DNA of 64,000 nt from positions 496,001 to 560,000 of the forward strand of contig NZ_AP024660.1 in assembly GCF_019977395.1 (NCBI RefSeq), read 5' to 3'. The translations under genes and the position numbers were made by a program. The stretch comes from Arthrobacter sp. NicSoilC5 (GTDB taxonomy: Bacteria; Actinomycetota; Actinomycetes; Actinomycetales; Micrococcaceae). The first letter of the stretch is position 1. Each line of letters starts with the position of its first letter. Below the pieces are notes generated by a model. The model was given only the letters and a program-made list of their open reading frames with translations, ran no database searches and had not been told where the DNA came from. Below, in pieces: positions 50,950 to 64,000 of the stretch.

Positions 50950-52167
50950 CTACGCCTTCACATAGCCGTTGGGGTTCAGCACGAACTTTGTTGCGGCTCC
51001 AGCGTCAAATTCGGCGTAGCCGCGCGGAGCATCTTCGAGCGGGATGGCCTTGGCGTTGACGGCCTTTGCGATCTGGACCTTGTCATGCAGGATGGCCATC
51101 ATCAGTTGACGGTTGTACTTCATCACCGGGCATTGGCCTGTCGTGAAGGACAAGGACTTCGCCCAACCAGTGCCCAGGGAGAGCGAGAGGGAGCCGTGCT
51201 TGGCTGCTTCATCAATTCCACCGGGATCTCCGGTGACGTAGAGGCCGGGAATGCCAAGGGCACCGCCGGCGGCCGTGATGTCCATAAGGGAATTCAGGAC
51301 CGTGGCAGGCGCCTCGTGGGAGGCATCCTTTCCGTGGCCGCGGGCTTCGAAGCCGACGGCGTCCACGCCACAGTCCACCTCGGGAACTCCCAGGATCTGT
51401 TCAATCTGGTCCTTCGGGTCGCCCTTCGTCACGTTGACGGTTTCGCAGCCGAACGACCTCGCCTGCGCCAGGCGGTCTTCATTCATGTCGCCCACAATCA
51501 CGACGGCGGCGCCAAGCAACTGCGCGCCCACGGCCGCAGCAAGGCCCACCGGTCCGGCGCCTGCCACGTAAACGGTGGAGCCAACACCGACGCCGGCGGT
51601 CACGGCCCCGTGGAAGCCCGTGGGGAAGATGTCCGAGAGCATGGTCAGGTCCAGGATCTTTTCCAGGGCCTGGTCCCGGTCCGGGAAGCGCAGCAGGTTC
51701 CAGTCGGCGTACGGGACCAGTACATACTCGGCCTGTCCGCCCACCCAGCCTCCCATGTCGACGTAGCCGTAGGCGCTGCCCGGGCGGTCCGGGTTGACGT
51801 TCAGGCAGATGCCAGTTTTTCGCTCCTTGCAGTTTCGGCAGCGGCCGCAGGAGATATTGAACGGCACGGAGACAATGTCGCCCACTTTGATGAATTCGAC
51901 GTCGGGCCCCACCTCCACCACCTCGCCGGTGATTTCGTGGCCAAGGACCAGGTTCTGCGGAGCGGTGGTGCGCCCCCGGACCATGTGCTGGTCCGAGCCG
52001 CAAATGTTGGTGGTCACCGTGCGGAGGATCGCGCCATGGGGTACCTTGCGGCCAACGTTGGCCGGGTTGACGCCCGGGCCGTCCTTGAGTTCGAACGTCG
52101 GATAGTCCGTGTCGATGATTTCGACGACGCCGGGTTCCTTGTAGGCAACTGCTCTGTTTCCTGACAT
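50950..52167 (-). CDS. fdhA: glutathione-independent formaldehyde dehydrogenase
   Basis: Zinc medium-chain dehydrogenase of 405 residues that oxidises formaldehyde to formate with tightly bound NAD, without glutathione. It closely follows the Pseudomonas putida enzyme as I recall it: MSGNRAVAYKEPG start, TTNICGSDQHMVRGRTTAPQ with catalytic Cys, LVLGHEITGEV, four structural-zinc cysteines in CGRCRNCKERKTGIC, and AVDAVGFEARGHGKDASHEA. ATG 52167 follows AAGGAAG. It neighbours, across the LysR gene, a Rieske demethylase expected to release formaldehyde, and the formate dehydrogenase that would take the product. Some homologues are formaldehyde dismutases, which cannot be excluded. Confidence 0.93.
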   Translation of the reverse strand: MSGNRAVAYKEPGVVEIIDTDYPTFELKDGPGVNPANVGRKVPHGAILRTVTTNICGSDQHMVRGRTTAPQNLVLGHEITGEVVEVGPDVEFIKVGDIVSVPFNISCGRCRNCKERKTGICLNVNPDRPGSAYGYVDMGGWVGGQAEYVLVPYADWNLLRFPDRDQALEKILDLTMLSDIFPTGFHGAVTAGVGVGSTVYVAGAGPVGLAAAVGAQLLGAAVVIVGDMNEDRLAQARSFGCETVNVTKGDPKDQIEQILGVPEVDCGVDAVGFEARGHGKDASHEAPATVLNSLMDITAAGGALGIPGLYVTGDPGGIDEAAKHGSLSLSLGTGWAKSLSFTTGQCPVMKYNRQLMMAILHDKVQIAKAVNAKAIPLEDAPRGYAEFDAGAATKFVLNPNGYVKA

Positions 52168-52486
52168 GGCCACTTCCTTATCGGTAGGTGTTGCGGAGCG
52201 TGTGGAAGCCCGGGATATCCGGTCATGGACGGTGAACTCCATGTTGGGCGGGTCTGCGATGGAGAACAGTGCTTTCCCGGGGATGGCCGCGGGTCGCAGG
52301 GGAAGGCGGAGCGGGGGTGCTCGCAATCACCACCCCTTGGGAGATATATATGGACTACGTCGACTGATATACCAAGGCTGGGTTTAGCGTATATGGGGTA
52401 TTACAGCAGGTCAACAGGGTTTTAATGCCTTTGCTGCGCCATCCTCCACCAGCCGGCGTCGAGTCTTTCCGTTCAGCAGTGCGGCG
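52168..52486. other. intergenic region upstream of the formaldehyde dehydrogenase gene
   Basis: 319 bases without a supported gene. An A+T-rich block (52338-52405, GATATATATGG ... TGATATACC ... GTATATGGGG) stands out in G+C-rich surroundings and probably holds the promoter of the dehydrogenase gene. GACT is repeated around ACGTC at 52353-52365. No clear terminator for the LysR gene. Confidence 0.35.
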
Positions 52487-53419
52487 TCACAGGTCGTCTT
52501 CCGGGCGGGCGGCGAGGATCCGCTTGGCGTTGGTCTGCAGGATGCTGAGTGACTCCTGGATCAGGGGGGATCCGATGCTCCCCCGGCGAGCGACAGCTAC
52601 AATCCGCCGGACGGGCCGCCCTTTGCCGGTTATGCGCAGCCGCACGACGTTTTCTGCGCTATGGAGAGGCGCCAGTCGTGGCAGCAGGCCCACGCCCAGC
52701 CCCGCACCGACGAAGGCGATCTGAGTCTCCCACTCCACAGCCTCGTGGGCAATCCGCGGGGTCACCCCCACTGCGGTGAACGCAGCGGTGAAAAGGGCGT
52801 GGTACGTGGAACCGGCAGCTTCGGTGATCCAGGGTTCCGAGGCCAGCTCTTCAAGCGTCACAGTTTCCCGCGATGCCAACGGATGGTCGGACGGAATGAT
52901 CACGTCAAGGGGGTCGTCAAGCAAAACAGTCTGCTCGAAGCGCAAATCATCGTCACTATAGGTGTTGGACTGCATCGCGACGATGACAGCAAGATCGATC
53001 CGCTCGGCCACCAGCAAATCGAAGCAGCGGGCCGGATTGGCCTCGAGTACCTGCACCTCCAGCTGGGGGCGCGTGGAGCGGAGGGTGGCGGCCAAAGGGG
53101 CCAGCAACTGGGCGGCAGCCGTAGAAAATCCACCGAGGCCGAAACGCGACTGCACTTGGTCGCCGGCCTCCATTGCCGCCGCGCGCAGGCTCTCCCAATC
53201 CGCGATGAGGGTGTCCGAACCCGCCACGATGAAGCGGCCCGTGGCGGTCAGCCGGACACCCCGACCGTCCTTCGTCAGCAGCTGCAGACCGAGTACCCGC
53301 TGGAGCTCACGCAGTTGCGCTGAGACTGCGGAAGGAGAGTACCCCGTAAGCTCCGCGGTTCCGCTGACGGTGCCGCATCTGGCGAATACTCGAAGCGTTA
53401 TGAGCCTTGGATCGATCAT
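52487..53419 (-). CDS. LysR-family regulator, divergent from gbcAB-like genes
   Basis: Regulator of 310 residues: N-terminal winged HTH (MIDPRLITLRVFARCGTVSG, TELTGYSPSAVSAQLRELQR) and a C-terminal effector-binding domain of the periplasmic-binding fold. ATG 53419 is the natural family start; the frame is open further upstream, but that part lies over the divergent promoter and the other gene. 157 bases separate it from the Rieske oxygenase gene on the plus strand, the usual LysR arrangement, so it likely activates those genes in response to their substrate or a product. Confidence 0.92.
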   Translation of the reverse strand: MIDPRLITLRVFARCGTVSGTAELTGYSPSAVSAQLRELQRVLGLQLLTKDGRGVRLTATGRFIVAGSDTLIADWESLRAAAMEAGDQVQSRFGLGGFSTAAAQLLAPLAATLRSTRPQLEVQVLEANPARCFDLLVAERIDLAVIVAMQSNTYSDDDLRFEQTVLLDDPLDVIIPSDHPLASRETVTLEELASEPWITEAAGSTYHALFTAAFTAVGVTPRIAHEAVEWETQIAFVGAGLGVGLLPRLAPLHSAENVVRLRITGKGRPVRRIVAVARRGSIGSPLIQESLSILQTNAKRILAARPEDDL

Positions 53420-53576
53420 GCATATATTGTGCACGGTTATCCGCTGATTCTTGCGCTTTTGTTGCAGACCCGGCAGCCCTAATGTGACTACAACGACTTT
53501 TGGCAACGGGCTGCGGAAACGCAACCCTCGTCTTCGCAAACCAGCACACTGACCCACGCTTCTCGGGAGAAAAACC

Positions 53577-54881
53577 ATGACTGCTCCAGTGCACCAGCCC
53601 CTCAACGCACGCGGAAAACTCGCTTCATCCTTGCCTGCAGAGCAGCTGGCGGAGATCACCGAATTGTTTGCGTTCCGCCGCACGGGATATTCACTCGACG
53701 CCCCTTTCTACACAGACCCCACGATTTTCAAAATCGACATGGAAGCCATCTTTGGCCAGCACTGGATCTTCGCCGGCAGCGTTGCCGAGCTGCCCGAGCC
53801 AGGCGATTACATCACGGTCGACTACGGCCCCTACTCCCTGATCGTGCTGCGCAACGACGACGGCGGCGTCAACGTCCTGCACAACGTGTGCCGGCACCGC
53901 GGGGCCCGCGTCCTTACCGAAGCCACCGGGTCCACCGGCAACCTGGTCTGCGGCTACCACTCCTGGACCTACTCCCCTGAGGGCAACCTGATCCACGCTT
54001 CCGCTCCCGGCGAGGCCAAGTTTGACAAGAACTGCTTCGCCCTCAAGCGGGCCCACAGCCGCGAGGTGGCCGGACTCATCTTCGTCTGCATCGCTGACGA
54101 GCCGCCCACAGACTTCGATGAAACCTCAAAAATCTTTGAGCCTTACCTCGCACCCCACGACCTGTCGAAGACGAAAATTGCCTACCAGCAGAACATCATC
54201 GAAGAGGGCAACTGGAAGCTCGTCATGGAGAACAACCGTGAGTGCTACCACTGCGACGGACACCCGGAACTGGCCTGCTCGCTCTTTCCCACGTGGGGCC
54301 TGACCGAGGGCCTGATCCCGGCCCACCTCGAAGAGGTCTGGGACCGCAACAAGGAAGCCCAGTCCTCCCTCGAGGAGCGGTGCCGCCGCTACGGCCTGCC
54401 CTACGGGGTGGTTGAAGAACTCGATACCCGCATTGCCGGTATCCGCATATCCCGCGAATCCCTGGATGGGGAAGGCGAATCGTTCTCGGCCGACGGCCGC
54501 AGGCTCTCCAAGAAGCTGCTCGGCGACCTGCCGGACTTCCGCCTGGGCCGCTGCTCGATGCACCTGCAGCCCAACAGCTGGTTCCACTTCCTGGGCGACC
54601 ACGTCATCACGTTCGGCGTTTTCCCCATCAACGAGCACCAATCACTGGTACGCACCACCTGGCTGGTAGCGGACGACGCCGAAGAAGGCGTCGATTACGA
54701 CCTGGACAAGCTCACCTACACCTGGAAGCAAACAAACCTGCAGGACAAGGCGTTCGTTGAGCTCTGCCAGCAGGGTGCCGGCAGCCCCGCCTACCAGCCC
54801 GGCCCCTACATGAAGAGCGAATACCAGGTAGAGGCATTCATCAACTGGTACGTACAGCGTGTGCAGGAGCACCTGGCATGA
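53577..54881 (+). CDS. Rieske oxygenase, GbcA-like (glycine betaine or related N-demethylase)
   Basis: Ring-hydroxylating-type oxygenase subunit of 434 residues. Rieske 2Fe-2S ligands C105 and H107 (NVCRHRGA) with C125 and H128 (CGYHSW). The mononuclear iron region is ENNRECYHCDGHPEL with H225 and H229. The ENNRECYHC block is that of GbcA and related quaternary-amine demethylases rather than aromatic-ring dioxygenases. Such enzymes split a methyl group from glycine betaine (or stachydrine, carnitine-type compounds) as formaldehyde. ATG 53577 follows GGGAGA. It overlaps the reductase gene by four bases. Reaction class well supported, exact amine inferred. Confidence 0.88.
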   Translation: MTAPVHQPLNARGKLASSLPAEQLAEITELFAFRRTGYSLDAPFYTDPTIFKIDMEAIFGQHWIFAGSVAELPEPGDYITVDYGPYSLIVLRNDDGGVNVLHNVCRHRGARVLTEATGSTGNLVCGYHSWTYSPEGNLIHASAPGEAKFDKNCFALKRAHSREVAGLIFVCIADEPPTDFDETSKIFEPYLAPHDLSKTKIAYQQNIIEEGNWKLVMENNRECYHCDGHPELACSLFPTWGLTEGLIPAHLEEVWDRNKEAQSSLEERCRRYGLPYGVVEELDTRIAGIRISRESLDGEGESFSADGRRLSKKLLGDLPDFRLGRCSMHLQPNSWFHFLGDHVITFGVFPINEHQSLVRTTWLVADDAEEGVDYDLDKLTYTWKQTNLQDKAFVELCQQGAGSPAYQPGPYMKSEYQVEAFINWYVQRVQEHLA

Positions 54882-56293
54882 CGGAACTCCTCACCGAGAC
54901 GGTAATCCAGGAGCCTCAGCGCATCCGCGGCCTGGAAATGCCGTGGAACAGGGTCATGGGCAGCGCCGAGGCCCCGGCCCGCGCGGCCCGCGTTCTGGGT
55001 CCCTGGCATCCGCAGGAGTTCATGGCGGAATGCGTCGAAACCATCCCCGAGGCCGGCGGCATGATGACGTTCGTGTTCCGCCGGTGCGACGGTGCGCCCC
55101 TGGCATTCCGCGCGGGCCAGTACGTCAACATTGCCTTCCCGGTGAACGGTGAGGAGCACGAGCCCGTGGACCGCAGCTACTCGCTGTCCAGTTCGCCCAC
55201 GGAACCGTGGACCTTCAGCGTCACCGTCAAGCGCGACCCGGGCGGACTGGTGTCGCCGTGGGTGCACGACAATGTCAGGCCCGGCACCGTCCTGGACATG
55301 CTGGGACCCGTGGGGGCCTTCCACCTGCCCGATGCCGACCGGCGCGCACGCTACCTTTTCCTGGCCGCGGGCGCGGGCATCACCCCCATCATGTCGATGC
55401 TGCGGACCATCCACTCGCTGCCCGGGACCGCCAACGTCGTGGTGCTCTACCACGGTGCGGAAGCCGGCGGCTTCGCATTCGACCGGGAGCTGGCCTACAT
55501 CGCTTCCGTTGACTCGCGCGTCAAGGTCTTTTACGCGCTGGGCGACCGCGGCAGGCCTGAGGAGTGGGAGGGCTTCAGCGGACGGCTGAGCTCGGCAATG
55601 ATCGAGGAGGTGGCCCCCGACGCCAACGGCCGGCAGGTCTACGCCTGCGGCCCCGAGGGTTACCTGAACACCGCTACTGAACTGCTCAAGAAGGTCGGCG
55701 TCGACGACACCTCGATCTACATGGAGTTCTTCTCCGGAGATCGCAAAACCCTCCTTGAATACCAGGCAGAGATCGCGCTGGCATCGGACATCGCGGAGGA
55801 AATTGCCGAGGAAATCGCAGATTCGGCAGAGGACTACTACGAAAGCCAGCCCGCCGCGTTCGGGCTATACGAACCCGGCTATGACGCTGACGGTACCTTG
55901 GAGGCATCAGGGCTGCCGCTGGAGGTTGTCGAACCGGAGGCACCCTCGACCGAAGCCGCCAAGGGCGGTTCGGAGGCGGATTCCGCAGCCCCGTCCCCTG
56001 ATGCGTCAAGCTTTGACACCGTGGGAACGGGAAGCCTCACCCTCTCCTTCATGCGCACCGGCATCAATGTGCGGATCGACCCCGAAGAACACATCCTCGG
56101 TGCCGCCCAGCGCGCGGGCGTGCGGATCGGTGCCAACTGCAAGGAAGGAATGTGCGGCTCCTGCAAGGTAGTCAAACTTTCGGGTGAGGTCGAAATGAAC
56201 CACCAGGGCGGGATTCGGAAGCGGGAAATCGATGCAGGCAAGTTCTTGCCCTGCTGTTCCACCGCCCAGACGGACCTGGTGATCGATGCCTAG
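54878..56293 (+). CDS. GbcB-like ferredoxin reductase with acidic linker
   Basis: Electron-transfer partner of the Rieske oxygenase, 471 residues against about 370 in usual GbcB proteins. Order: FAD domain (RSYSLSSSPTE, about residues 90-100), NAD domain (FLAAGAGITPIMSM; CGPEGYLNTATELLKK), a Glu/Ala/Ser/Pro-rich linker of about 100 residues (IAEEIAEEIADSAEDYYES onward), then a plant-type 2Fe-2S ferredoxin with C421, C426, C429 and C459. It passes electrons from NAD(P)H to the oxygenase. Start overlaps the oxygenase stop (ATGA). The long linker is the unusual feature. Confidence 0.9.
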   Translation: MTELLTETVIQEPQRIRGLEMPWNRVMGSAEAPARAARVLGPWHPQEFMAECVETIPEAGGMMTFVFRRCDGAPLAFRAGQYVNIAFPVNGEEHEPVDRSYSLSSSPTEPWTFSVTVKRDPGGLVSPWVHDNVRPGTVLDMLGPVGAFHLPDADRRARYLFLAAGAGITPIMSMLRTIHSLPGTANVVVLYHGAEAGGFAFDRELAYIASVDSRVKVFYALGDRGRPEEWEGFSGRLSSAMIEEVAPDANGRQVYACGPEGYLNTATELLKKVGVDDTSIYMEFFSGDRKTLLEYQAEIALASDIAEEIAEEIADSAEDYYESQPAAFGLYEPGYDADGTLEASGLPLEVVEPEAPSTEAAKGGSEADSAAPSPDASSFDTVGTGSLTLSFMRTGINVRIDPEEHILGAAQRAGVRIGANCKEGMCGSCKVVKLSGEVEMNHQGGIRKREIDAGKFLPCCSTAQTDLVIDA

Positions 56294-56485: not shown

Positions 56486-56932
56486 TCAGGAATCAGCGCG
56501 CAGGGCAGCCCAGGCCTGGAAGCCACCGATGAGGTCAGTCGCGCGGCTCAACCCCAGACGCTGCAGTGTATGTGCAGCGAGGCTGGAGCTGTAGCCCTCA
56601 TTGCAGACCACCACTATCCGCCGGGCCGGGTCGCCGGCGGTGGGGATCCGGTGGGGGCTGGAAGGGTCAAGCCGCCACTCCAGAACGTTTCGGTCGATAA
56701 CCACTGCGCCCGGAAGATCGCCGTCGCGGTCCCGCTGGTCGACGGGCCGGGTGTCAACGACCAGTGCGCCCGCTGCCATCTCCCGCTCAAGATCCGACGG
56801 GTGCACCCGCTCAAGCCCGGCGCGGCTCTCGAGCAGCAGTTGGTCCACTGTAAGTGGTGCCTGCGAACTGCCCGGGCCTGAACTGCATGGGAATGCCGCG
56901 GCGCCCTCCTTGACTATGTGAGGCTGTTCCAC
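56486..56932 (-). CDS. rhodanese-domain protein
   Basis: Single rhodanese-domain protein of about 148 residues: GALVVDTRPVDQRDRDGDLP, AVVIDRNVLEWRLDP and the active-site loop VVVCNEGYSSSLAA with the persulfide-carrying Cys, ending DLIGGFQAWA. The start is uncertain; GTG 56932 has GAGGA six bases upstream, and TTG 56995 and GTG 56848 are also in frame. It may carry sulfur for formate dehydrogenase maturation, or help with selenium or thiosulfate handling, given the adjacent selenoenzyme genes, but this is inference. Confidence 0.8.
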   Translation of the reverse strand: MEQPHIVKEGAAAFPCSSGPGSSQAPLTVDQLLLESRAGLERVHPSDLEREMAAGALVVDTRPVDQRDRDGDLPGAVVIDRNVLEWRLDPSSPHRIPTAGDPARRIVVVCNEGYSSSLAAHTLQRLGLSRATDLIGGFQAWAALRADS

Positions 56933-57168
56933 CGTGTTCCTCGCTTTGCCTGCTGATCGTTCGTGCGTTCCGCGGTGCAGCGGAGCGACGCTCAATTCCT
57001 ACGGTATGGGCAGAGCCAGGGTCAACACGCTTCCGCCACGCGACCGCGGCGGGCAAGGCCCTCCGTGACGTCCGCCTCCTTCGGGCCCGGACGGGAATAC
57101 CACGGCCTGCTTTTGCCTTGTTACCGGTGAGGCCCCCACCGCCGGCTGCCTCGCTCGAAAGGACCCCC

Positions 57169-57441
57169 TTGCCCGTAGCCTTCATTCCGTTCACCATGCA
57201 CGCCTCCGCGCAGCATGACCACCGACGCACCTTCCGCACCGACATCGAACGCTTGACCGACGGTCATCTCCGGTCAACGCCCCTGGACGTACTCAGGTCG
57301 ACGAATACCCAGGCTGTCTTCCGCGGTGCCGTCCCGAAAGGCGCCCACACCGCAACCGACGCGAGCCTCGCTCAGTACCTCCAGGACCGTCTCGCCCGTG
57401 AGGACATCCACCTGGATCTCAGCGTCAGCATCGAGCGGTAA
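57169..57441 (+). CDS. small hypothetical protein upstream of formate dehydrogenase
   Basis: Unrecognised hydrophilic protein of about 90 residues. TTG 57169 is favoured because AAAGGA stands five bases upstream; ATG 57196 is the alternative. Predicted mixed composition with a helical C-terminal part (ASLAQYLQDRLAREDIHLDL). It points toward the formate dehydrogenase operon, 146 bases ahead, and could be part of it. No motif recognised and no function proposed. Confidence 0.5.
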   Translation: MPVAFIPFTMHASAQHDHRRTFRTDIERLTDGHLRSTPLDVLRSTNTQAVFRGAVPKGAHTATDASLAQYLQDRLAREDIHLDLSVSIER

Positions 57442-57587: not shown

Positions 57588-60500
57588 ATGGCACCGCGAA
57601 GTTTTCTTCAATGGCCGGTCGTCCGTCAGCTAAGCACGGGCGACCTCTTGGGCCGTGGGCCGGCAGTGACGTCGGCCAAGACAAAAGCAATAGCCCCCCG
57701 GACTGCCACCGCCGACCGCGTCGTGCAGAGCGTGTGTCCTTACTGTGCCGTCGGTTGTGGGCAGCGTGTCTACGTCAAGGACGAGAAAGTGGTCCAGATC
57801 GAGGGCGATCCGGACTCACCCATTTCACGCGGCCGCCTGTGCCCAAAGGGCTCTGCGAGCGAGCAGCTGGTCAACTCACCGGGCCGCCAGACCAAAGTGC
57901 TTTACCGTGCGCCGCGTTCCACTGAGTGGCAGCACCTGGACCTGGCCACGGCCGTTGAGATGGTGGCGGACCGCTTCATCGAAACCCGCCGCAGGACCTG
58001 GCAGCAGGAAGACGACCAAGGCCGGCTGCTGCGCCGCACCATGGGCATCGCCTCCCTGGGCGGCGCAACCCTGGACAACGAAGAAAACTACCTGATCAAA
58101 AAGCTCTTTACAGCTGCCGGGGCGGTGCAGACCGAGAACCAGGCGCGTATTTGACACTCCGCAACGGTTCCCAGTTTGGGAGCCTCGTTTGGACGCGGTG
58201 GTGCTACGCAATCACTGCAGGACATGGCCAACGCCGACTGCATCGTCATCCAGGGTTCCAACATGGCCGAATGCCATCCCGTGGGGTACCAGTGGGTGGC
58301 GGAGGCTAAGGCCCGCGGAGCGAAGGTCATCCATATCGACCCCCGGTTCACGCGGACCTCGGCAGTGTCGGATAAGCACATCCCCATCAGGGCGGGTTCT
58401 GACGTCGTGCTGCTGGGCGCGCTCATCAACTACGTCATCGCCAATGACCTGTGGTTCAAGGAGTACGTGACCGCGTACACCAACGCGGCCACCCTGGTCC
58501 ACGAGGACTACCGGGACGCCGAGGACCTGGGCGGCCTCTTCTCCGGATTCGACCCGGAAAAGGGTGCCTACGACAACTCGTCATGGGCCTACGACGAAGG
58601 CGAGGACGGCTCCATCGACGAACCGGCCGGTCCCGAGCACGGCGCCGAAGCCGGCGCCCGGGCCTCCGGCGATGCCTACGGCAGCGGTGGTCCGCCCCTC
58701 GAACACGCGGAGGTGCTGCGGGATGACACGCTCCAGAACCCCAGGACCGTCTTCCAGATCGTGAAGCGGCACTACGCCCGCTACACCCCGGAAATGGTGC
58801 GCGACATGTGCGGCATCAGCGAAGCCGACTTCGCCTACCTGGCGAAGACCATCACGGAGAACTCCGGCCGCGACCGGACCACCTGCTTCGCGTACGCCGT
58901 GGGCTGGACCCAGCACTCTCTGGGTGCCCAGTTCATCCGGGCCGCCGCCATCCTGCAGCTGCTGCTGGGGAACGTGGGGCGCCCTGGCGGCGGGATCATG
59001 GCCCTCCGGGGCCATGCGAGCATCCAGGGCTCCACCGACATTCCCACGCTGTTCAACCTGCTCCCCGGCTACCTGCCCATGCCCAGTGCCGGCCGCCACG
59101 ACACTCTGGAGGAGTACCTGGCGGCCAACGCCTCGAAGAACCAAAAGGGATTCTGGGCCGACGCCGACGCGTACACCATCAGCTTGCTGAAGGCGTGGTG
59201 GGGTGACGCTGCGACGGCGGACAACGACTGGGCCTACGACTACCTGCCGCGGCTGACCGGTGCGCACGGGACCTATGAGACCGTGATGAGTATGCTCCGC
59301 GACGAGGTGGAAGGCTACTTCCTGCTCGGCCAGAACCCGGCGGTCGGCTCGGCCCATGGGCGGATGCAGCGGCTCGGAATGTCCCACCTGAAGTGGCTCG
59401 TGGTCCGGGACCTGAACATGATCGAGTCCGCGACGTGGTGGAAGGACGGCCCGGAAATCGAGTCCGGGGAACTCCGCACCGAGGATATCGAGACCGAAGT
59501 CTTCTTCCTGCCGGCGGCGACCCACGTGGAGAAGGCCGGATCCTTCACCCAGACCCAGCGGCTGCTGCAGTGGCGCCACCAGGCGGTGGCCCCGCCGGGG
59601 GAGTGCCAGAGCGAACTCCAGTTCTTCTATGAACTGGGGCACCGGATCCGGGAGAAGCTCGCCGATTCCCAGGACGAAAGGGACCGGCCGCTGCTGGACC
59701 TGACGTGGGATTACCCCACGGACGACCACGGCGATCCGGACCCCGAGTCGGTGCTTGCCGAGATCAACGGCCGCCACCTGACCGGTCCGGATGCCGGCAA
59801 GCCGCTCTCCGCCTACACCGAACTCCGCGCCGACGGCTCTACGACGGCGGGCTGCTGGATCTACACCGGCGTCTACGCTGAGGGGATCAACCACGCTGCC
59901 AACCGGAAACCGGGCCAGGAGCAAGGCCCGGCAGCGCCGGAATGGGGCTGGGCGTGGCCGGCCAACCGACGGATCCTGTACAACCGGGCCTCCGCCGATC
60001 CGGCCGGTAAGCCGTGGAGCGAACGCAAGAAATACGTTTGGTGGGACGCGGAGCAGGGGAAGTGGGTGGGCGACGACGTCCCCGACTTCCCGCCGACCCT
60101 CGCACCCGGCAGCAAACCCGACCCCTCGGTGGGCGGCCCGGCCGCGCTCAGCGGGGACGATCCGTTCATCATGCAGTCCGACGGCAAGGGCTGGCTGTTC
60201 GCGCCCAAGGGGCTCGTGGACGGCCCGCTGCCGACTCACTACGAGGCCCAGGAATCACCGGTGGCCAACGGGCTGTATCCGCAGCAGCAGAGTCCGGCAC
60301 GACTGAGGTATGCCCGGTTGGACAACCTGAGCGCACCGAGTGCCGGTACCCCGGGGGCGGATGTCTATCCGTTCGTGTTCACCACGTACCGGCTCACGGA
60401 GCACCACACTGCGGGCGGGATGAGCCGCTGGCTGCCGTACCTCTCTGAACTGCAGCCGGAGATGTTCTGCGAAGTGTCGCCCGAACTGGCCGCTGAGCGC

Positions 60501-60917
60501 GGACTGGAACCCTATGGGTGGGCCACCATCATCTCGCCCCGCTCTGCCATTGAGGCAAAGGTGCTGGTGACCGACCGGATGAGGCCGCTGGCCGTCGGCG
60601 GCCACACCGTGCACCAGATCGGGCTGCCCTACCACTGGGGCGTCGGCAGCAACGCTGTGGTCAGCGGTGACGCGGCCAACGACCTGCTGGGCGTGACCCT
60701 GGATCCCAACGTCCAGATCCAGGAATCCAAGGTGGCCTCCTGCGACATCCGTCCAGGCCGCCGGCCGCGCGGGGAGGACCTCCTTGCCCTTGTTGCCGAA
60801 TACCAGGCGAGGGCCGGGCTGACCATCGAGACCAGCAACCGCGCCGTCACCAACCCCGCGGCGGAAGGCATTGATCCCATGTGGCCTGGCAGCCACGCCA
60901 AGGGCGGCGGGGAATGA
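57588..60917 (+). CDS. selenocysteine-containing formate dehydrogenase, catalytic (alpha) subunit
   Basis: Molybdopterin-dependent formate dehydrogenase of 1109 residues, read through an in-frame UGA at codon 189 (58152-58154). N-terminal 4Fe-4S ligands C50, C53, C57 and C85 (CPYCAVGC, LCPKG), then NQARI-Sec-HSATVP, the position at which FdnG-type enzymes carry Sec or Cys, followed by SFGRGGATQS and GSNMAECHPVGYQW. The C-terminal cofactor-capping domain contains GGHTVHQIGLPYHW. It oxidises formate to CO2. No Tat signal is visible, so the complex probably faces the cytoplasm. First of three genes with iron-sulfur and NrfD-type subunits. Gene callers will split it at the UGA. Confidence 0.93.
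58152..58184 (+). promoter_or_regulatory. selenocysteine UGA codon and bacterial SECIS hairpin
   Basis: UGA at 58152-58154; 11 bases later GGTTCCC (58166-58172) pairs with GGGAGCC (58178-58184), including one G-U pair, around an AGTTT loop. The loop with GU about 19 bases after the UGA fits the layout known for bacterial SECIS elements recognised by SelB. Confidence 0.88.
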
Positions 60918-61015: not shown

Positions 61016-62026
61016 ATGGGCCAGCTGTCCGGACCAACCGACCCCACCGCCGATGCCCACTGGGAACACAACCATCCGCGCAAGGGCTTCTTCACTGACA
61101 CTTCGATATGTATCGGCTGCAAGGCCTGCGAAGTCGCCTGCAAGGAATGGAACCACAACCCGCAGGACGGCAACCTCGAACTGCTCGGATCCTCCTACGA
61201 CAACACCGGATCCCTTGGCGCCAGCACCTGGCGGCATGTCGCCTTCATCGAGCAGGGCCAGGACCGGATTGTCGAGGCACGGGAATCAGGCCGGGCCCTG
61301 GTCAGCCTGGGCATGCCCCGCATCGGTCCCCCCACCCCCGCAGCGTCCGCCCCGGCGGATCTGGCTGCGGCGGACACAACGCCGCCTGACACAGCAGACT
61401 TCCGCTGGCTGATGTCCTCCGACGTCTGCAAGCATTGCACCCACGCCGGCTGCCTTGACGTCTGCCCCACCGGAGCGCTGTTCCGCACCGAGTTCGGCAC
61501 CGTGGTGGTCCAGGACGACGTCTGCAACGGCTGCGGAACGTGCGTGGCCGGGTGCCCCTTCGGCGTGATCGAGCGCCGCAGCAACGGCACGGTCAAGGTG
61601 GCCACCAGCAGGGAAGACCAGCACGCCGGGCATCCCGCCGTCCCCAACGTGGGCATCGCCCAGAAGTGCACCCTCTGCTACGACCGTCTGGTGGCGGACG
61701 AGACGCCCGCCTGCGCCAAGGCCTGCCCGACGACGTCCATCAAGTTCGGCGACCACGACGACATGGTGGAGGCGGCCCGGGAACGGGTTGCCGACCTGCA
61801 CGCCAAAGGCCTCACTGAGGCGAGGCTTTACGGGGCAAACGAAAACGACGGCGTCGGCGGAACCGGATCCGTCTTCCTGCTGCTGGACGAACCGGAGGTC
61901 TACGGACTTCCGCCGGACCCGCGCGTACCCACAGCTGATCTGCCAAAGATGTACCGGCGGGCCGGCATGGCGGTAGCAGGCATGGCCGCCGCCGCTGCGC
62001 TGGCTTTCCTGGGAGGACGCGCGTGA
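61016..62026 (+). CDS. formate dehydrogenase iron-sulfur (beta) subunit
   Basis: Electron-transfer subunit of 336 residues with four 4Fe-4S clusters: CIGCKACEVACKEWNHNP, CKHCTHAGCLDVCPTGAL, CNGCGTCVAGCPFGVI and CTLCYDRL...CAKACPTTSI. A C-terminal hydrophobic stretch (AGMAVAGMAAAAALAFLGG) is probably the single membrane anchor seen in FdnH/FdoH-type subunits. It carries electrons from the molybdenum subunit to the membrane subunit. ATG 61016 has TTGGAG nearby. It lies 98 bases after the alpha subunit and overlaps the next gene by four bases (GTGA). Confidence 0.95.
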   Translation: MGQLSGPTDPTADAHWEHNHPRKGFFTDTSICIGCKACEVACKEWNHNPQDGNLELLGSSYDNTGSLGASTWRHVAFIEQGQDRIVEARESGRALVSLGMPRIGPPTPAASAPADLAAADTTPPDTADFRWLMSSDVCKHCTHAGCLDVCPTGALFRTEFGTVVVQDDVCNGCGTCVAGCPFGVIERRSNGTVKVATSREDQHAGHPAVPNVGIAQKCTLCYDRLVADETPACAKACPTTSIKFGDHDDMVEAARERVADLHAKGLTEARLYGANENDGVGGTGSVFLLLDEPEVYGLPPDPRVPTADLPKMYRRAGMAVAGMAAAAALAFLGGRA

Positions 62027-63114
62027 CACTTTCCGAGTTCGACAGTTTCCGGCCAACAGAGCCCGCACGCCGTCGCCGGGAGGGCGGCAAGCGGGGGACG
62101 GGCCGCCGCCGGGACAACGGTGACGGCTCCCGGGAAATGCCGATGGTGCCGGAGCCGGAATTCACCTCGTACTACGGCCGTTCCGTCGTGAAACCCGCCC
62201 CCTGGGGCGATGACGTGGCGATCTACCTCTTCCTGGGTGGCGTGGCAGCCGGTTCGGCCCTCCTGGGCGCCGGCGGCCAACTGACCGGACGCCCGGTGCT
62301 GCGCCGGAACGCCCGGCTGGGTGCCCTGGCAGCGGTGAGCGCGGGTGCGGTTGCCCTGGTGAAGGACCTTGGCCGGCCGGAGCGTTTCCTGCACATGCTG
62401 CGGACTTTCAAGGTCACCTCCCCGATGAGTGTGGGCTCGTGGATCCTCAGCGCCTTCAGCGCCGGCGCCGGCGTCTCCGCCGTGGCGGAAATCGACCGGA
62501 TGAGCGGAGACCGGCTGCCCCTGGGTCCGTTGCGCAAGGTCCTGCGCGCTGTCGAAGGACCGGCAGGCATCGAAGCTGCGGTGTTCGCCGGGCCGCTGGC
62601 GGCGTACACGGCCGTCCTGCTGGGTGACACTGCCACACCGACGTGGAACGCAGCCCACGAGGAACTGCCTTTCGTTTTCGTGAGTTCGGCCTGCCTCGCG
62701 TCTGCCGGGCTCGCGATGGTCACCACGCCCGTGCACGAGACGGGTCCTGCGCGCAACCTCGCCGTGCTCGGCGTCCTGGGGGATGTGGTGGCCATGAAGG
62801 TGATGGAGCACCGGATGGACCCGGTAGCCGCGGAACCACTGCACCAGGGCAAAGCCGGCGCCATGCTGAAGTGGAGCGAGCGGCTGGCGGTCGCCGGAGG
62901 CCTGGGCACACTGCTGGGCGGACGAAACCGGATGGTCGCCGCCGCGTCGGGTCTGGCACTGCTGGCCGCCTCGGCCCTGACCCGGTTTGGTGTGTTCGAG
63001 GCAGGCCTCGCCTCTGCCAGGGATCCGCGGTACACCATCGAACCGCAGAAGAACCGGCTCGCAGCGCGCCGCGCCGCCGGCGTTACCGGCGACGCAATCA
63101 CCACCGGCAGCTGA
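62023..63114 (+). CDS. NrfD-type membrane subunit of formate dehydrogenase
   Basis: Polytopic membrane protein of 363 residues in the NrfD/PsrC family, with about eight helices after a polar 60-residue N-terminus. Visible are DDVAIYLFLGGVAAGSALLG, VKDLGRPERFLHMLRTFK and SPMSVGSWILSAFSAGAGVS. It likely replaces the cytochrome b gamma subunit of FdnI-type complexes and hands electrons to menaquinone without heme. GTG 62023 overlaps the beta-subunit stop. Last gene of the formate dehydrogenase operon, convergent with selD. Confidence 0.92.
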   Translation: MTLSEFDSFRPTEPARRRREGGKRGTGRRRDNGDGSREMPMVPEPEFTSYYGRSVVKPAPWGDDVAIYLFLGGVAAGSALLGAGGQLTGRPVLRRNARLGALAAVSAGAVALVKDLGRPERFLHMLRTFKVTSPMSVGSWILSAFSAGAGVSAVAEIDRMSGDRLPLGPLRKVLRAVEGPAGIEAAVFAGPLAAYTAVLLGDTATPTWNAAHEELPFVFVSSACLASAGLAMVTTPVHETGPARNLAVLGVLGDVVAMKVMEHRMDPVAAEPLHQGKAGAMLKWSERLAVAGGLGTLLGGRNRMVAAASGLALLAASALTRFGVFEAGLASARDPRYTIEPQKNRLAARRAAGVTGDAITTGS

Positions 63115-63129: not shown

Positions 63130-64000
63130 TCAGCGGATCTGGATACCCTGTCCCACAGTGGTGTGACCGATGACGGGGTGGCCCGGCAACTCGCCGACCA
63201 CCAGCAGGCCGCCGGACGTCTGCGCATCGGCCAGCAGCAGCAGATCGTCCTCGGTGATGCCCGGTGCGGCCTCCAGGTGCGGACGCACCCAGTCGAGGTT
63301 GCGCCGGGTCCCGCCGGAAACGAAGCCGTCCCGGAGCGCCTCGCGGGCTCCGCCAAGAAGGGGAACGGCATTCATGTCGATCACCGCGCCCACTTCCGAG
63401 GCACGGACCATCTTGTGGAGGTGTCCAAGCAGGCCGAAGCCGGTCACGTCCGTCGCCGCACGGACGCCGGCGGCCACCGCCGCCTCGGAGGCGTCGCGGT
63501 TGAGCGCCGCCATCGTCTCCACGGCTTCGGCAAACACTTCACCGGTCTGCTTGTGCCGGTTGTTCAGGAGACCGACGCCGAGTGGCTTGGTCAGCGTAAT
63601 GGGCAGCCCCGGCCGGGCGGCGTCGTTGCGCAGCAAGCGGTCAGGATGGGCGACGCCGGTGACGGCCATGCCGTACTTGGGCTCCGGGTCATCAATGGAG
63701 TGCCCGCCGAGCACGGGGCACCCCGCCTGGGATGCCACGCTCAAGCCACCACGCAGGACCTCAGTCATCAATTCCATCGGCAGGACGCCGCGGGGCCAGC
63801 CGACCAGGTTGATCGCAGTGACCGGCCGGCCGCCCATGGCATAGATGTCCGACAGGGCATTGGCGGCGGCAATGCGGCCCCAGTCATATGCATCGTTGAC
63901 TACGGGGGTGAAGAAGTCAGCGGTGGTCAGGACCGCAAGATCTTCGCGCACCAGGACCGCCGCAGCGTCGTCGCCGCTGTCAAGGCCCACCAGGACCTCC
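63130..64000 (-). CDS. selD: selenide, water dikinase (selenophosphate synthetase), partial
   Basis: Makes monoselenophosphate, the selenium donor for selenocysteinyl-tRNA. About 290 C-terminal codons are in the window; the N-terminus with the catalytic Cys/Sec and Lys lies beyond base 64000. Visible are VGLDSGDDAAAVLV, LTTADFFTPVVND, AANALSDIYAMGGRPVTAIN, GGHSIDDPEPKYGMAVTG and TDVTGFGLLGHLHKMV, all typical SelD blocks. It ends 15 bases from the convergent formate dehydrogenase operon. Its presence supports the selenocysteine reading of the UGA in the alpha subunit. The other sel genes may lie just outside the window. Confidence 0.95.
   Translation of the reverse strand, partial: EVLVGLDSGDDAAAVLVREDLAVLTTADFFTPVVNDAYDWGRIAAANALSDIYAMGGRPVTAINLVGWPRGVLPMELMTEVLRGGLSVASQAGCPVLGGHSIDDPEPKYGMAVTGVAHPDRLLRNDAARPGLPITLTKPLGVGLLNNRHKQTGEVFAEAVETMAALNRDASEAAVAAGVRAATDVTGFGLLGHLHKMVRASEVGAVIDMNAVPLLGGAREALRDGFVSGGTRRNLDWVRPHLEAAPGITEDDLLLLADAQTSGGLLVVGELPGHPVIGHTTVGQGIQIR

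Follow-up and report, generated by a model that had tools for sequence, protein, structure and literature searches.

A predicted selenocysteine-containing formate dehydrogenase with an in-frame UGA, encoded beside its selenocysteine machinery in an Arthrobacter genome

The 64,000-nucleotide stretch of the Arthrobacter sp. NicSoilC5 genome analysed here (the window) carries on its plus strand, at positions 57588–60917, a gene that almost certainly encodes the selenocysteine (Sec)-containing catalytic subunit of a membrane-anchored, molybdopterin-dependent formate dehydrogenase (FDH), in which the UGA at 58152 would be read as Sec by means of the hairpin that follows it. The frame is interrupted solely by this TGA (58152–58154), and the terminal stop (60915–60917) is also a TGA. 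When read through, it gives an alpha subunit of 1109 residues with Sec at position 189. The two mechanically called open reading frames, 57588–58154 and 58176–60917, do share one phase, and the context of the TGA is NQARI-stop-HSATVP, as had been pointed out originally; the TTG at 58176, with which the second of them starts, is merely the first start-like codon past the TGA.

In profile searches, the read-through protein scored 1962.9 bits against NF041513 (formate_DH_Act, the NCBIfam model of actinobacterial formate dehydrogenase; cut-off 1400), while the left and right pieces taken separately scored 336.1 and 1583.3 bits. It also passed the cut-off of TIGR01553, the model for FDH-N alpha (943.4 bits; cut-off 814.2), and the 13 top-scoring sequences of solved structure are, without exception, named formate dehydrogenase. 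In an alignment to solved formate dehydrogenases, the residue encoded by the TGA falls under the X of 1kqf_A and 1h0h_A, within the motifs NQARV-X-H and HQARI-X-H; we take this X to be Sec. The original prediction of a selenoprotein with UGA at the Sec position is therefore supported at the level of sequence by the aligned site, by the SECIS-type hairpin behind it and by the adjacent genes for tRNA-Sec, SelA, SelB and SelD. The gene was further expected to be split by standard annotation, which is not necessarily so: NF041513 matches over the full length, and the gene of plasmid pYA7-1a, which is 92% identical to that of the window, is annotated in the NCBI record of the plasmid as one CDS across the TGA, so that for this record the claim fails.

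The codon at the site was TGA in 115 and TGC in five of the 120 loci read. All the 82 loci of relatives (80 genome contigs and two plasmids) have TGA, and the same is true of all 105 distinct genes compared. The existence in five genomes of the genus of a Cys version of the gene, whose TGC is one base from TGA, could suggest that a Cys-type formate dehydrogenase has acquired a nonsense mutation or was misread in sequencing, and that the gene is a pseudogene. With TGA retained throughout the relatives, with the hairpin behind it under synonymous constraint (see below) and with the Sec machinery adjoining, we regard this explanation as extremely improbable; the conservation by itself would make a pseudogene very unlikely.

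The element that would direct Sec insertion is a SECIS-type hairpin on the plus strand at 58166–58184, 11 nt past the TGA. It had been described as a perfect 7-pair hairpin with a GU loop at this distance; the hairpin and the 11 nt are as described, but it has 8 pairs, including one G.U pair, and the loop is GUU (5' arm 58166–58173, loop 58174–58176, 3' arm 58177–58184; −13.0 kcal/mol). A 29-nt stretch folds better than expected (z −3.73; one of 200 shuffles folds equally well), but with wider flanks the energy is unremarkable (40 nt, z −1.83, equalled by 10 of 200 shuffles; 61 nt, z −1.20, equalled by 23 of 200). The SECIS check proposed with the original prediction was likewise only partly favourable: Rfam SECIS_3 matches 58149–58207 with an E value of 2.7e-4, but the 33.3 bits lie under the gathering score of 63. 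Among 30 chosen sequences, 97.9% of the cells are paired, and two pairs change on both sides, which is reached by 8 of 500 shuffles; the covariation score, however, is weak (reached by 71 of 500). The low SECIS_3 score, the ordinary energy with wide flanks and the weak covariation are the points that speak against our reading. A better argument for the hairpin than folding energy or Rfam score is the constraint on codon choice. When the 105 distinct genes are compared, each of which has the TGA, synonymous conservation is highest, among 702 overlapping windows, in the ten codons that directly follow it; GTT is found there in 104 of 105 genes and CCC in 105 of 105, compared with average codon identities of 0.53 and 0.51 for conserved Val and Pro columns.

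A SECIS model (R1) was also built from the FDH hairpins of the same 30 chosen sequences. Applied to the whole genome, it found one good site, that of the window, with 85.2 bits, a score that is partly a matter of construction because the site is itself one of the 30. There was no second good site for this model in the genome (runner-up 16.2 bits, E 6.1), and as R1 was built on FDH hairpins only, other SECIS types could escape it. At the five Cys genes it scored just 19.9–25.1 bits.

The genes needed for Sec insertion lie directly to the right of the FDH genes. At the right edge of the window, selD (selenide water dikinase; TIGR00476, 384.4 bits, cut-off 125) occupies 63130–64000 of the minus strand, and its frame extends past the window to about 64155. 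The motif GGGCACK of its product contains Cys, not Sec, and this Cys is presumably the active residue. The gene for tRNA-Sec (selC; plus strand, G000:C1:560200-560290; 78.3 bits, cut-off 47), with anticodon TCA, is located 200 bases right of the window, and is followed on the same strand by selA (411.0 bits, cut-off 267.9) and then selB (281.6 bits, cut-off 242.25), all three lying at most 3.5 kb right of the window. The search right of base 64000 that had been proposed thus recovered selA, selB and selC, and with selB and tRNA-Sec present an objection raised in advance, that the genome might lack selB or selC, falls. The gene order is FDH alpha, beta and NrfD-type anchor (plus strand), selD (minus), and selC, selA and selB (plus). 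Although selD had been placed at the end of the operon, it converges on the FDH genes and diverges from selC-selA-selB; selD and selC stand back to back, with some 45 bases between their starts, and selD therefore lies outside the FDH operon.

In the proposed mechanism, SelB carrying Sec-tRNA-Sec would bind the hairpin at 58166–58184, so that the ribosome would read the UGA at 58152 as selenocysteine, whereas at the UGA at 60915, which has no such hairpin behind it, translation would end; SelD, SelA, tRNA-Sec and SelB would be supplied by the genes directly to the right. Because the inserted residue is predicted from the sequence, one might think of plain read-through or of a suppressor tRNA placing another amino acid, with no selenium involved. 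This is hardly credible for a gene clustered with selA, selB, selD and a tRNA-Sec whose anticodon is TCA, all the more as tRNA-Sec is missing from the five genomes that have the Cys gene.

Two further genes on the plus strand would complete the enzyme. The iron–sulphur (beta) subunit (61016–62026) has 4Fe-4S Pfam domains, and its 164.7 bits against TIGR01582 (FDH-beta) are under the cut-off of 334.7; the membrane anchor subunit (62023–63114) is of the NrfD type (PF03916, 68.7 bits, cut-off 25.8). This third gene matches NrfD models only, and is not an FdnI-type cytochrome b anchor. The partner subunits are thus not of the FdnH/FdnI type, and the complex is not a textbook FdnGHI. FdhD is encoded elsewhere in the genome (155.8 bits, cut-off 140.9). 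The enzyme would bind molybdopterin and its metal, and would oxidise formate, the electrons probably passing by way of the iron–sulphur subunit to the NrfD-type anchor. The same anchor and low-scoring beta subunit would also suit a selenoprotein with a different substrate, a relative of the molybdopterin oxidoreductases that has taken on another reaction. We consider this very improbable, since alpha passes the cut-offs of two curated formate dehydrogenase models and finds nothing but formate dehydrogenases among its 13 best-scoring solved sequences, and since Amycolatopsis chiangmaiensis, with reported Sec-type FDHs, is described as removing formate in a selenium-dependent way (PMC7176365).

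Left of the FDH genes, at 50950–56293, the window encodes a LysR-type regulator, a formaldehyde dehydrogenase of the glutathione-independent kind (752.2 bits, cut-off 636.95) and a Rieske oxygenase with its reductase. This last pair is matched best by the glycine betaine monooxygenase models GbcA (382.8 bits, cut-off 670) and GbcB (241.9 bits, cut-off 500), in both cases below cut-off. This suggests a one-carbon oxidation neighbourhood, and a route from demethylation through formaldehyde and formate to the FDH appears plausible. A rhodanese-domain protein is encoded at 56489–56995 (minus strand); in L012, L014, L015, L019, L020 and L137, a relative of it likewise lies upstream of the cassette. 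Just upstream of the FDH gene, at 57118–57441 (plus strand), there is a 107-residue open reading frame that matches no Pfam family and has 93% identity to its counterpart in the close relative L136.

FDH was found in 47 of the 198 genomes of the window's genus, 42 of them with the Sec type (including G018 and G193, in which the gene is fragmented) and five with the Cys type. Direct reading of the site covered the five Cys loci and those Sec loci that were retrieved, while for the other Sec genomes the in-frame TGA is that reported by the genus search. tRNA-Sec is present in 43 and SelB in 42 of the 198; the discordant genomes are G118 (tRNA-Sec and SelB with no FDH match; 63% complete) and G193 (no SelB match; 78% complete), and when only the 187 good-quality genomes are counted, Sec-type FDH, tRNA-Sec and SelB occur in an identical set of 40. 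Wherever FDH and tRNA-Sec occur together (42 genomes), a single contig carries them, 3184–3392 bases from each other. The Cys-type gene (TGC; 63–65% identity) belongs to G183, G133, G108, G078 and G064 (L122–L126), and neither tRNA-Sec nor SelB was matched in any of these five genomes. Four of them (G064, G108, G133 and G183) had been considered as cases of Sec-FDH without tRNA-Sec; this was rejected on reading TGC at the site, as in G078, and the TGA counted in L123 (G133) is the normal gene end.

Among the 82 loci of relatives, 57 have the gene order of the window and 7 end before selC is reached. In the remaining 18, all titled Mycobacterium or Mycolicibacterium, the sel genes are on the other side of the FDH genes; in L033–L035, for example, selB, selA and selC (minus strand) and selD (plus strand) are left of the FDH. 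In L127 (G018:C1:2752000-2768000), the FDH gene is in two pieces in different frames, and tRNA-Sec has a low score (68.6 bits) and an odd anticodon call, tcaa. This cassette is possibly decaying, or a sequencing error may be involved.

More interesting than the UGA itself is the presence of the cassette on a conjugative plasmid. The genes for the three FDH subunits, selD, selC, selA and selB are found together (L010 15001-28065) on pYA7-1a of Arthrobacter sp. YA7-1 (NZ_CP110115.1), a plasmid of 129,773 bp typed as conjugative (MOBP, MPF_T). The alignment of the plasmid cassette to that of the window has 85.1% identity and covers 96% of a query of 6,691 bases, and a Tn3-family transposase gene ends about 225 bases from its selB. 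The same cassette is carried by a 239 kb Tsukamurella plasmid (NZ_LR134459.1; L011 12001-21553), which is typed as non-mobilizable and so lends no support to transfer by that plasmid. In a FastTree tree of 48 chosen sequences, the pYA7-1a copy falls among Arthrobacter/Pseudarthrobacter copies (support 0.986, the next node having just 0.3); as a gene tree taken alone, this is not proof of transfer.

The chromosomal neighbours of the cassette vary. The window's downstream neighbours lie near it in L012, L014, L015, L136 and L137, and were not found in L013, L016, L018, L023 and L026 within the 3–4 kb or so of flank covered past selB; absence from such short flanks is weak evidence, because in L137 the neighbours sit 6.6 kb off. 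Three places with the downstream neighbour but without the cassette's tRNA-Sec (L133, L134 and L135) gave no clean empty insertion site, the upstream neighbour being missing. Taken with the block-wise presence and absence within one genus, and with the few relatives whose enzyme is the Cys form and in which the Sec machinery is absent, these data are consistent with a self-contained cassette of about 10 kb (three FDH subunits, selD, selC, selA and selB) that would bring an enzyme together with the codon reassignment it needs, and that conjugative plasmids would spread among actinobacteria, a Tn3-family transposase adjoining one of the copies. To us the case for and against such spread is evenly balanced. 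In the literature searched we found no plasmid-borne copy, although one may exist in print elsewhere or under other wording. With Sec-FDH, Cys-FDH and no strong FDH match side by side in one genus, and with the whole Sec cassette on a conjugative plasmid, the group offers a natural experiment, which would permit testing what a cell gains or pays on acquiring the 21st amino acid in one step.

The enzyme and the reading of UGA as Sec are already well known, and the gene is one further case of the most widespread bacterial selenoprotein family, formate dehydrogenase (PMC5029168, PMC13188914). The finding is correct but ordinary, because a comparable cluster in Corynebacterium aurimucosum, the selenium requirement of A. 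chiangmaiensis and the transfer of the Sec trait with fdhA have all been described before. The likeness to the NF041513 family extends over the full length, the position of the Sec-coding UGA is shared by all 82 relatives, and no feature was found that sets the window's gene apart from it. The alpha subunit of the window's enzyme is homologous to that of E. coli FdnGHI (1kqf), with the Sec sites aligned, and passes the TIGR01553 cut-off; the enzyme differs in its NrfD-type third subunit, in the beta subunit under the TIGR01582 cut-off, and in having no twin-arginine (RR) pair, as an export signal of that kind would have, in the first 40 residues of alpha, as counted from the predicted start codon at 57588. 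As described in 2010, the fdnG of C. aurimucosum ATCC 700975 contains an internal UGA and lies in a cluster with selA, selB, selD and selC (PMC2830990), a likeness at the level of gene content. The membrane-bound Sec FDH of A. chiangmaiensis is similarly clustered with SelA and SelB in its FDH1 cluster, for which SelD is not listed, and formate removal was shown to need selenium; three Sec FDH systems are reported there, compared with one strong FDH match (E <= 1e-100) here (PMC7176365). Finally, the genes of the Sec trait are reported to lie close to that of a selenoprotein, in many cases fdhA, and by inference to move jointly with it, with two Arthrobacter strains listed as recipients of the Sec trait (PMC1794560, PMC5029168). 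The Sec genes of the window likewise stand beside the selenoprotein gene; whereas no conjugative plasmid is mentioned as a carrier in the available parts of those two reports, the whole cassette is found here on such a plasmid.
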